Source of the DNA: Corynespora cassiicola
Lineage: Eukaryota; Ascomycota; Dothideomycetes; Pleosporales; Corynesporascaceae
Direction of reading: 5' to 3'
NCBI GenBank assembly: GCA_022059125.1
Contig: JAEUWY010000002.1
Span: 3,038,001-3,102,000 of the forward strand
Length of the DNA stretch: 64,000 bases
The notes beneath the pieces were generated by a model. The model was given only the letters and a program-made list of their open reading frames with translations, ran no database searches and had not been told where the DNA came from. The first letter of the stretch is position 1; each line of letters begins with the position of its first letter. Shown piece after piece: positions 41,311 to 46,500 of this stretch. A program made the position numbers and the translations under genes.

Positions 41311-41926
41311 GCATTGAATCCTGGGTAAAGGGCTTATGAACCCCAAAATATAAAAATATAAAGATATAAAAATATAACAATACAGTATTCATGACTTATA
41401 AGATGACTCAAGTACATTCTGAAGCTTTGCAAAATGACTTTAGCTCTTCATGGGAGGACCGTCGCAACGAATACCACAATTGCCGTCTCATTCTGCTGGT
41501 ACAATGAGATTATTGAATAGGGGGGATACTAGGGAAGATTTGATTCCTAGAATTGGGATAAAAGCTTTATACCCGTGGTCGTTATGAACGACACGATGTG
41601 GCTTGAGAGAATAACGCATACAGCAGAGTATAGCGGATGTTTTTGTACACGATACCCTCATCTATTGATTTAACGAGTGTTTGATTTGCCTATGGAGTTA
41701 AATCCGCCCTGTTTACCAAGTCAGCGGGTGGCTATAGGCTGGCGAGATGTTCCCATGCAGGTGGAACTACTCCACCTCGCGTAACAGTCGCTTGCTGCTG
41801 CGCCCCGCCAGGCAATTGACAACACATATACCAGAGGGCACTCATCAAATGGTATTGACATATTCTTGCGGTATATATATTTTGTTAAACAATGGTCTTT
41901 CATCGATTACATAATCACAACTCCAA
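41311..41926. other. Intergenic, AT-rich, no gene seen
   Basis: Contains a short tandem array of ataaaaatataaagatata type (41346..41380) after the secreted protein gene. No coding signal. Confidence 0.5.
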
Positions 41927-42060
41927 GGCACTTTGGCGGAGTGGTTAACGCGCTGGCCTGCTAAGCCAGTTCCTTCGGGAGCGTGAGTTCGAGTAAGCTC
42001 TACCCTATACCACACACTTCTGTATTCCTCTCTAACATCCGATAGATCTCACAGGTGTCG
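41927..42060 (+). tRNA. tRNA-Ser (anticodon GCT), interrupted in the T-loop
   Basis: The 5' part 41927..41992 has an acceptor strand ggcactt, an A box (tggcggagtgg), D stem gcg/cgc, a perfect anticodon stem ctggc/gccag with loop ctgctaa (anticodon GCT at 41960..41962), and a serine-type long variable arm with a cTTCGg hairpin. The T arm starts gtgag-ttcga at 41983..41992 and is then interrupted for 53 nt. It resumes at 42046 with at-ctcac (loop ttcgaat, stem perfect), acceptor 3' strand aggtgtc (pairs ggcactt with two G-T wobbles) and discriminator g at 42060. A T7 run follows 18 nt on. Without the insert the RNA is 81 nt and fully foldable. Whether it is functional is open. Confidence 0.8.
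41993..42045 (+). other. 53-nt intron-like insert inside the tRNA-Ser T-loop
   Basis: Starts GTAAGC, has TCTAAC at 42030..42035 and ends GATAG. These are the donor, branch and acceptor signals seen in the protein-coding introns of this window, and the length is the same. Removing exactly GT..AG restores a 7-nt T-loop and splits between tRNA positions 58 and 59. It also interrupts the Pol III B box. Confidence 0.75.
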
Positions 42061-42078
42061 CATAACAACCCAAGAATC

Positions 42079-42085
42079 TTTTTTT
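42079..42085 (+). terminator. RNA polymerase III terminator (T7)
   Basis: Seven consecutive T, 18 nt after the tRNA discriminator base; the right distance for Pol III termination. Confidence 0.6.
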
Positions 42086-43504: not shown

Positions 43505-46500
43505 CTAAAACTTCACCTCTCCACCATAGTCCACATACGACCCTTCAGCCGCCAACAACAGTTGCTTTCCATTTCCTTCACTGAGATCTGCATCATGCAT
43601 TACCACATCAACATCGGCATTGTCGTCCTCCATCTTGATTGCACGCATTGTATCGCGCTCAATGTGTTGGCTACGAGGATCGTCAATGAGAGATGTGCCA
43701 GAATCGTCGGCGGTGCGGTGGGCGTCTTCATCTTGTCGTGTGACGGACGTTGCGTTGGCAAGAAGGCTGGCAACCTTCAAGGAAGAAGAGAGACGGAAAT
43801 GTCCTTCATCCCGCAATTGAGGGCGTGATGTCGAGAGCTCGAGGCCCATCTGCGTAGCGCGTTCCGAGTTTGGAGCGGCTTCTTTCTTGATCCACTGGCA
43901 ATCGCGGAGACGACTAGCTTCAGGGTGGACAATGGGATCCGTACATGGCTTGAGGCAATCCGAGTTGGCACTGGTCAACTCAACTTTGACCGACACGGAG
44001 CGCGTGTGCACCTTCTCCCAGAGGAGAGAAGGCAGACCACGGGGGAATGTCTCGCTAGCCTTTAGCGTGTTGCACTCCCAGTATAGTTGCTCCTCGCCAA
44101 GCCGCAGGAACCGTCGGCTGAGGAGTCGTTCCTGGAAACTCCAGGCGCTTGTATTCCATCCAAAGGCAGGGACCGTGAAGTCGATGGTTGTATCAAGGAT
44201 ACTAGTTGGGGCCGTTGGTACGGGGGCAAGGTCGACAGCTCTCGTCAAAGCGTGAATGGGCGAGAGGTCTGTGGTGGGTTCCGAAACACATGGTCTGGTG
44301 CTCGGAAGGTTGTCTTTGGCGTGCGGCTCTGCGCATTGCAGGCTTGAGTCTGAGCCGCACGGGTGCTTACCATGTCTCCTGTCTTTGGCGACAGACGTGG
44401 TTGGAACGTCGCCGGCGATTGCTTGTTGGGCAACGAGGCACACGTCGGCATTGCGATACACCGAAGCCATGGCTTCGCATTCCCGCTGTTTGTCATCTTC
44501 CGAGTCCTGGAGGATGCATAGGGAGTCGGCCCACATATAGCGGAGTCCCATACCACGCGTGGCAGAGACTGCATCCTTGACGGCCTGGGGCAATACTTCC
44601 TCGCGAACACCCTTGGTCTGCAAACTGTGCAGATTCTTCGATGTCAAATGAAGACGAGACTGGGACCACATGTGGCTGAGTGCCGCGTAACGACTCTGAC
44701 TAGAGCCAGAAGCGATGGCAGAGCTATCCACGACGCGGATGACAGGGCAACCTATTCCTTCAGGAAGCACCTCAATGAGGCGCGTCGGTAGGGACTCGGG
44801 CTCAGTCACTTGCCATACGCAAGCTTCGTGGTCATGCACACATTCCTCGAGCCAATTCTTGCCTTGGTCGAAGGTGTGGTTCCCTCGCTTGACAACATTG
44901 CGGACATGGAGATGCGCGAGTGGGTCGGTGCCGACCCCATTGGCAAACAGCTCGACCTCAGTCATCTCAGCATGGGGCCCAGGGAAAGCAGCATCGTCCT
45001 TTGGCCAGCTGATACAGCAGGGAGCGGGCGTGAATGTCATGGTCAGCAGAGCTGCATTCGGTCGCTCTGCCGGCTCGCTGGAAAGCATCGATTTGACAGT
45101 GTTCACCACCTTGACCTCGGTTGTTGTCTTCGCCTCGTCGACGAACTCAAGGAGCCATGCGTGCAGTCCGGGAACATCCTGCCAGTAGTACTTGTCTTTG
45201 CGACTGCTAAATGTCCGGCGGAAGTCCAGCCACCGCGGGTTGTCCCCATTGAATGCGACAGAGGCCATTTCAGCAAAGACACATCCGAGACTCCAGATAT
45301 CAGCAGCTTGCTCACGCGAGATCTTGTTCAAGACCTCTGGCGCACAGTACTGGCGTGTGAGCGGCTTGGATTCCCCGTGTTGCGAAGCGTCGTCCGACGA
45401 GCTGATACCGAAATCGCTCAGTACCACGTGAGGATACTCGTTGTTGCCTTGGACGATGAGAATGTTCTGGGGCTTGATATCCATGTGCTTGACGACGGGG
45501 CGTTGTTCGTGGAGGTAGCGAACCGACGATGCGAGACAGCCCAGCATGGTAACGATGGTCTGGCGGATGCCTGCGGGGCGCTGTAGGGTGTTTTTGTCGA
45601 GCCATACTGCAAGTGTCATTTCGGCGACGGGCGAGAGCAGGATCGACATCTTGTCTCCCTTGGAGTAGGCGCCGAGGAAGCGGATGATGTGAGGGTGGCG
45701 GAGCTTCTGAAGAACACCGACTTCCTTCTTCAGCTCGTCGATGGCGGATTGATCACGATTCTTGAGTGTCTTTCGACTGACACGTAATTTTGTTTCGCGA
45801 TGGACGACTTCATCGACTGTACTGAAGCCGCCAGTTCCGAGTAGTTTGACGCTGAGGAAGGATTGCGCAGAGCTGACGTCGGCGTGAGATATAGTGTCCT
45901 GTGTGAGGATTAGTGTCTGCGGGGCTTGAGGCGCTGAAGATGGGAGGGAGAAAGAAAAAGTGATAGTACCTGTGTCTTCAGTCTACTGGGTGTAAAGGGC
46001 CCAAAGGTACTAGGTTTGACTTCCTCGGCATGTCTGTCGACTGGCTCGGTCATCTCGACAACGACAGGTTTGACGTCGACGTGCTCGACCTGACAAGCGT
46101 TAGGAACTTGAATAGATCGATCAAAAGTCTCCGGTAGTACCTGAGCGAGCTCAAGCAAGCTCTTCACCGAGTCTGGATTCGTGAGAGGACCATAGCCATG
46201 GTTTACTTCCACACGAGCCTTGACCTGTAAGATATTAGTCTTGAGATGGTTACTGATGAGTATGGTTCCCTACGGTATTCGATGCTTGATCGTTGGCCTG
46301 GTCCTGTTGCGAGGACCGTTCGTGCCGGCGTTGATCATTCTTGCCGGACGCCACCAGCTCAGCACATACGTCCGCAAGCTGCACAGCGAGCTCACTATCC
46401 TTGAAGACAGAAAGGAGACGTTGTTTGAAGAGGTCGACGTTGGCCTGTTGGGTATCCTCGCCAGACTGTTGAACGAGATCCTTTGCGCCCGACTCAGGCT

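Follow-up and report, generated by a model that had tools for sequence, protein, structure and literature searches.

Spliceosomal-type introns in the T arm of nuclear tRNA genes of Corynespora cassiicola

How does a cell obtain a tRNA from a gene whose T loop is split by what looks like an mRNA intron? The question is raised by a tRNA-Ser(GCT) gene of the ascomycete Corynespora cassiicola, which lies in a stretch of 64,000 nucleotides (GCA_022059125.1, contig JAEUWY010000002.1, positions 3,038,001 to 3,102,000, forward strand) referred to here as the window. Canonical introns of eukaryotic tRNA genes lie at position 37/38 and are removed by the tRNA endonuclease and ligase. In this gene a 53-nt insert with GT, branch-site and AG signals had been predicted between positions 58 and 59; our analysis confirms it and finds the phenomenon to be larger than claimed. 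The reading that we favour, and hold to be very probable from the sequences described below, is that Pol III pre-tRNAs of such interrupted genes are spliced by the major (U2-type) spliceosome.

The interrupted tRNA-Ser(GCT) gene of the window

The elements of the gene, as read from the sequence, are as follows.

41872..41880, plus strand: TATA-like site, about 50 bp upstream of the tRNA
41927..41992, plus strand: exon 1 (66 nt), holding the acceptor 5′ strand, D arm, anticodon arm (GCT) and variable arm, and at its end the T-stem 5′ strand and TTCGA, to position 58
41934..41944, plus strand: A box (TGGCGGAGTGG)
41987..41994, plus strand: B box core GTTCGA plus the intron GT (GTTCGAGT), with the 5′ splice site at positions 59-60, judged against the B-box consensus
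41993..42045, plus strand: spliceosomal-type intron, 53 nt, at tRNA position 58/59
42032..42036, plus strand: branch-site motif CTAAC, whose branch A, at 42035, lies 10 nt from the end of the intron
42046..42060, plus strand: exon 2 (15 nt), holding T-loop positions 59-60, the T-stem 3′ strand, the acceptor 3′ strand and the discriminator G73
42079..42085, plus strand: T7 run, Pol III terminator-like as had been predicted, 18 nt past exon 2

The intron has the form GTAAGC...CTAAC...GATAG and reads GTAAGC...CTCTAACATCCGATAG. Left unspliced, the gene is a weak tRNA to Rfam (30.3 bits against a gathering threshold of 29) and no tRNA at all to ARAGORN, whether or not introns are allowed. Once the 53-nt insert is excised, ARAGORN calls a full tRNA-Ser(GCT). 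The borders were examined with a register test that required a restored acceptor, T-stem and 7-nt TTCRANN loop and left GT/AG free. The T arm is restored in three border registers, of which a single one is GT...AG. The gene combines an interrupted tRNA structure with splice signals, exact restoration of the T arm and a Pol III-like context. It is intergenic, since the single overlapping ORF (at least 60 aa) reaches just its last 12 bases.

The likeness in length to local mRNA introns was also borne out, at 53 nt against a median of 54.5 nt for 32 ORF-inferred introns in the window. In these the branch motif ends a median of 9.5 nt before the intron end; the set was chosen by GTRNG and CTRAY, and therefore just its length and T-run statistics are independent of selection. 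A stricter finder gave 12 mRNA introns, and the looser one (32) was used instead. The claim that the insert breaks the B box is mostly wrong. The core TTCGA is whole and the intron supplies GT at 59-60, a layout common to the other three 58/59 genes described below.

Elsewhere in the window, one ORF (43505-45649, minus strand) has matches to a protein kinase domain as well as to a HET (heterokaryon incompatibility) domain, and a window ORF matches rhamnonate dehydratase 3fxg, an entry from Gibberella zeae, with 587 bits over 292 aa. Together with the short introns, the HET-domain protein and this dehydratase match are what one would expect of a filamentous ascomycete.

Interrupted genes across the genome and the search for intact copies

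The genome (44.35 Mb, 23 contigs) yielded two further tRNA-Ser(GCT) genes. Both are on contig C15 and both are interrupted at the same site as the window gene, by introns of 56 and 53 nt. The original prediction had looked to such a count as a check, and had named a recently killed copy among its explanations. With all three genes interrupted, their exons 100% identical and no intact copy found, a killed copy is unsupported. The introns share 59-66% pairwise identity (shuffled introns: mean 54%, 95th percentile 62%) and the 60-nt flanks 51-62% among the three loci. All three introns keep GTAAG or GTACG at the start, a CTAAC whose A stands 10 nt from the end, and the final AG. None of the three genes (0/3) was found by ARAGORN in unspliced form.

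In total, 16 interrupted tRNA genes of five isotypes (Ser, Leu, His, Lys and Ile) were identified, with inserts at either 58/59 or 53/54. The one Leu(TAA) gene found is interrupted, at 58/59. All three His(GTG) genes found, six of the seven Lys(CTT) genes (at 53/54) and three of the five Ile(AAT) genes are likewise interrupted, and the Lys and Ile genes carry a second, ordinary 37/38 intron besides the T-arm insert. These are minimum counts, since 63 of the 1206 Rfam candidates were scored. The four tRNA-Phe genes have an uninterrupted T arm and, at 37/38, an ordinary intron, and ARAGORN called 57 tRNA genes in the 61 fetched loci with no T-arm excision. The T-arm introns are thus selective.

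The Leu(TAA) and Lys(CTT) cases first surfaced as low-scoring Rfam matches. A search with a 53/54 pattern gave 24 matches against 27 for the reversed control pattern, and so the pattern alone is without enrichment. After excision, ARAGORN called tRNAs in 11 of the 24 matches (six Lys, three His(GTG) and two Ile(AAT)) and none in the remaining 13. Ile3 was added by a query with spliced exons, which also gave the copy counts. Spurious junctions were discarded at loci L013, L031, L037, L044 and L047, all of which ARAGORN calls unexcised. More than one junction was obtained for L010 and for each of the three His loci, with as many as four at L076; the one restoring a 7-nt TTCRA loop was kept. For 15 genes the excised sequence gave a complete tRNA with the correct anticodon in ARAGORN, whilst Ile3 was joined from its locus and checked by the T-arm register test. 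The strict T-arm test is passed by 15 of the 16 genes; Ile1 fails through one T-stem mismatch. An assembly error as the source of the inserts was rejected in view of the three Ser loci, and of 16 genes in all.

Several of the fetched loci have features of their own. At L009 (C6:1322700-1324300, minus strand) the interrupted gene Lys3 is followed 16 nt on by Lys4, both Lys(CTT), and a third interrupted Lys gene lies approximately 590 bp upstream of the pair. A T run comes just after the second gene, so the pair may be one dicistronic Pol III unit. At L101/L103 (C20:1493937-1494200) two tRNA-Ile(AAT) genes, one uninterrupted and one interrupted, stand in tandem, approximately 30 nt apart, offering a natural side-by-side comparison. 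At L037 and L120 (C4:58429-58500) ARAGORN calls Ala(AGC) and the tRNA body matches a tRNA-Pro query (84% over 59 query letters); an anticodon shift is possible. Lastly, at L013 (C18:126303-127043), near the end of contig C18, telomere-like TTAGGG repeats run straight into mitochondrial-looking sequence with a tRNA-Met, which points to either a chimeric contig end or a telomeric NUMT.

For Ser(GCT), His(GTG) and Leu(TAA) no uninterrupted copy was found, a result that rests on five close-copy searches and on the completeness of the assembly. The spliced Ser 81-mer had no full-length match in the genome at E<=10, and matched the three interrupted loci, five Ser(AGA/TGA) genes and nothing else. 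A genome search for the intact 3′ half that allowed at most three mismatches gave no matches for Ser(GCT), none for Leu(TAA) and three for His, all three being interrupted genes in which the intron CAG stands in place of GGG. The spliced-exon query found no uninterrupted His or Leu(TAA) gene, yet did find uninterrupted Lys and Ile genes. Exact exon words had no match in the genome_contigs and viral_contigs databases. A DNA query with tRNA sequences for the missing isotypes gave one match and missed the tRNA-Phe genes, which were found by another search; DNA searching here therefore needs close sequence, and diverged copies can escape it.

By standard decoding the anticodons GCU, GUG and UAA read AGY, CAY and UUA codons. 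Among the 7261 codons of window ORFs at least 350 codons long, these number 201, 228 and 18. Were the interrupted genes dead and also the sole ones, the cell could not translate. This is the strongest argument that we have for removal of the introns, and it hinges on the searches above and on how complete the assembly is. It suggests that the spliceosome is probably obligatory for tRNA maturation in this fungus, with His, AGY-Ser and UUA-Leu codons all in need of spliced tRNAs and the Lys and Ile tRNAs using both machines.

The argument would fail if the interrupted genes were dead or decaying and the real genes lay in assembly gaps or were too diverged for our searches. Short D- or T-arm insertions in eukaryotic tRNA genes are indeed taken as pseudogenes in the part of PMC4090602 that deals with them, and the fraction of Rfam candidates scored leaves room for such genes. 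Moreover, the T-stem mismatch of Ile1 and the variable exon 2 of the Ile genes (81-95% identity among copies) suggest that some Ile copies may be decaying, and since uninterrupted Lys and Ile genes exist, single copies such as Ile1 could be. However, exons are identical within the Ser and within the His families while the introns drift, the splice signals are kept in 16/16 genes, promoter-like sites and terminators are kept also, and three isotypes would need to be jointly absent from a 44-Mb assembly. We therefore give dead copies only a slim chance, and for Ser(GCT), His(GTG) and Leu(TAA) a pseudogene explanation was rejected. The window gene looks like one of three functional tRNA-Ser(GCT) genes; the interrupted genes as a set are real rather than an artefact, and pseudogene status is very unlikely.

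Intron signals, origin and the machinery of removal

All 16 T-arm introns start with GT (GTANG), end with AG and are 48-59 nt long. A CTRAY branch motif is present in every one (CTAAC in 14, CTGAC in one and CTAAT in one), and its A stands 10-14 nt from the end of the intron; 12 of the 16 introns were found partly via this motif, whilst the three Ser introns, the Leu intron and that of Ile3 are independent of it. Each of the 15 genes passing the strict test has two or three registers that restore the T arm, a single one of which is GT-AG; such a pair is expected at a given register approximately once in 256. The His introns (L071, L074 and L076) are 76-90% identical to each other and form an upstream hairpin, closed by CCTC/GAGG in two copies and CCAC/GTGG in the third, and a second hairpin that holds the branch site in its loop. 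With just three copies this covariation is anecdotal.

Could these be recent introner-like mobile introns that landed in tRNA genes by chance, as the original prediction had suggested? That several isotypes and copies were struck at two fixed positions speaks for such an element. However, nine of the 16 introns were searched against the whole genome and all 12 matches fell in tRNA introns, with no other copies, and introns of different families are hardly more alike than shuffled ones (mean identity 0.57 against 0.54). The uninterrupted Lys(CTT) gene provides an empty site, being equal to the Lys2 and Lys3 exons joined at 53/54, and no target-site duplication is visible there by eye. A recent introner origin is accordingly improbable in our judgement. 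Reverse splicing into an abundant RNA, followed by recombination, would fit as an origin; reverse splicing is proposed for intron gain in U6 in the relevant passage of PMC10484740.

Whatever their origin, the inserts might be non-canonical introns removed by the tRNA splicing endonuclease, in the style of red algae and nucleomorphs, with GT, branch site and AG present by chance. T-arm introns in nucleomorph tRNA genes and non-canonical introns in Cyanidioschyzon are described in the passages of PMC4090602 on these organisms, and the Lys and Ile genes here bear 37/38 introns too. Yet no gene (0/16) has a 4-bp BHB central helix in register, the best having 3 of 4 bp in one gene, and in three genes a 4-bp match lies within 2 nt of the BHB register and not in it. 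The inserts, at 58/59 and 53/54, have neither the 37/38 position nor the BHB at the junction by which an endonuclease intron is recognised. Moreover, GT, CTRAY and AG in 16/16 introns, with a single GT-AG register in 15, are far beyond chance, and the Ser introns have diverged outside the splice signals. The lack of an in-register BHB together with the GT, CTRAY and AG signals makes the endonuclease reading a poor one, very improbable in our view, and the spliceosome reading a good one. Folding of the precursors gave mean T-stem pairing probabilities across the intron from 0.00 to 1.00 among genes, a spread that favours no reading over another.

The surroundings of the interrupted genes resemble those of uninterrupted tRNA genes. 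A TATA-like site in the zone from -75 to -25 is present at 12/16 interrupted genes, 43/53 uninterrupted genes and 5.6% of random places, and a CAA motif at 10/16, 29/53 and 6.6%. Four interrupted genes are thus without the first and six without the second. A run of at least five T within 50 nt downstream occurs at 15/16, 49/53 and 3.5%, the exception among the interrupted genes being Lys3, which Lys4 follows. The random comparison consists of 3000 places in the window, and the 53 uninterrupted genes are all ARAGORN calls with enough flank in the fetched loci, one mitochondrial-looking tRNA-Met included. The intron edges abut the B-box core, as GTTCGA/GT in the 58/59 type and AG/TTCRA in the 53/54 type, with splice-site letters replacing box letters. 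Pol III could plausibly still use a B box placed at the intron edge, which would explain the two positions seen.

No T-arm intron contains TTTT (0/16), against 7/32 of the ORF-inferred mRNA introns, a difference that is not significant (Fisher p = 0.079). Shuffled sets of the tRNA introns have no TTTT in 1.25% of cases, and the introns are not T-poor, with 26.5% T against 24.1% in the mRNA set. The absence of TTTT fits what a Pol III transcript would require and is suggestive only. That the tRNAs come instead from Pol II transcripts and are spliced like mRNA, a further suggestion of the original prediction, is the least probable reading: spliceosomes normally work on Pol II transcripts and the introns resemble mRNA introns, but the window gene is intergenic, its TATA-like site, A and B boxes and T run match what uninterrupted tRNA genes show, the T-arm introns are without TTTT, and Pol III transcripts can be spliced, as the section on fission yeast U6 in PMC10484740 indicates.

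Returning to spliceosomal splicing of Pol III pre-tRNAs, we infer transcription, intron removal and the order of steps as follows. Pol III would start from the TATA-like site, the A box and a B box whose TTCRA core sits at the intron edge, read through the TTTT-free intron and stop at the T run. The major spliceosome would then remove the intron in the nucleus and so complete the T arm, which would be needed for export, for modification of the T arm and for trimming of the 5′ and 3′ ends. The 37/38 intron of the Lys and Ile precursors would be taken out separately, by the tRNA endonuclease and ligase.

Relation to known systems and implications

Spliceosomal introns in non-coding RNA are a known kind. 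Rogers is said to have described mRNA-type introns in fungal nuclear rRNA genes in 1993; these are likewise mRNA-type introns in non-mRNA transcripts, but in Pol I rRNA and not in tRNA. We know of no case, however, in which three isotypes seem to come solely from nuclear tRNA genes with spliceosomal introns. Among the open-access PMC papers listed, a scope outside which preprints and most subscription papers fall, none was found to describe such introns in tRNA genes.

The closest parallel is the U6 snRNA gene of Schizosaccharomyces pombe, which according to the passage in PMC10484740 (citing Tani and Ohshima 1989) has an mRNA-type intron. As in the present case, a short intron of mRNA type lies in a Pol III-made non-coding RNA whose product is essential. 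Unlike U6, the RNA here is a tRNA, at least 16 genes of five isotypes are involved and the introns border directly on the B box. Spliceosomal introns in U3 snoRNA are present in the vast majority of Pezizomycotina examined, as stated in the pertinent part of PMC5832005; these too are spliceosomal introns in a non-coding RNA, differing in that it is a snoRNA and not a tRNA.

The T-arm introns differ from the canonical 37/38 introns, which are also found in nuclear tRNA genes including the Lys and Ile genes here, in position, length, splice signals and the lack of an in-register BHB-like helix. Non-canonical introns, including some in the T arm and several per tRNA, also occur in Cyanidioschyzon merolae and cryptophyte nucleomorphs. 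The sections of PMC4090602 and PMC3978253 on these systems associate the ectopic introns of C. merolae with a BHB and the splicing endonuclease; those of the Guillardia nucleomorph are 3-24 nt long, many without a defined BHB, and their splicing is left unexplained. In contrast to the T-arm introns here, those sections describe no GT-branch-AG signals.

If our reading is right, two general statements would need to be amended. A 2026 review treats tRNA splicing as spliceosome-independent in its relevant part (PMC13149111), a rule that is seemingly broken in at least 16 genes here. The tRNAscan-SE 2.0 paper, in the passage concerned, limits eukaryotic tRNA genes to one intron (PMC8450103), which is seemingly broken in nine genes (Lys and Ile). 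The case also illustrates how gene finders can report essential tRNAs as missing, as ARAGORN did for Ser(GCT).

Three isotypes of C. cassiicola apparently depend wholly on mRNA-type splicing. The U2 spliceosome would then be able to act on Pol III transcripts of tRNA size whose last exon measures 15-21 nt, and these genes would allow splicing without Pol II, as well as the gain of introns by abundant RNAs, to be tested in a natural setting. Moreover, the T-arm introns would form a third class of nuclear tRNA intron, and the translation capacity of the fungus would be tied to its splicing capacity.
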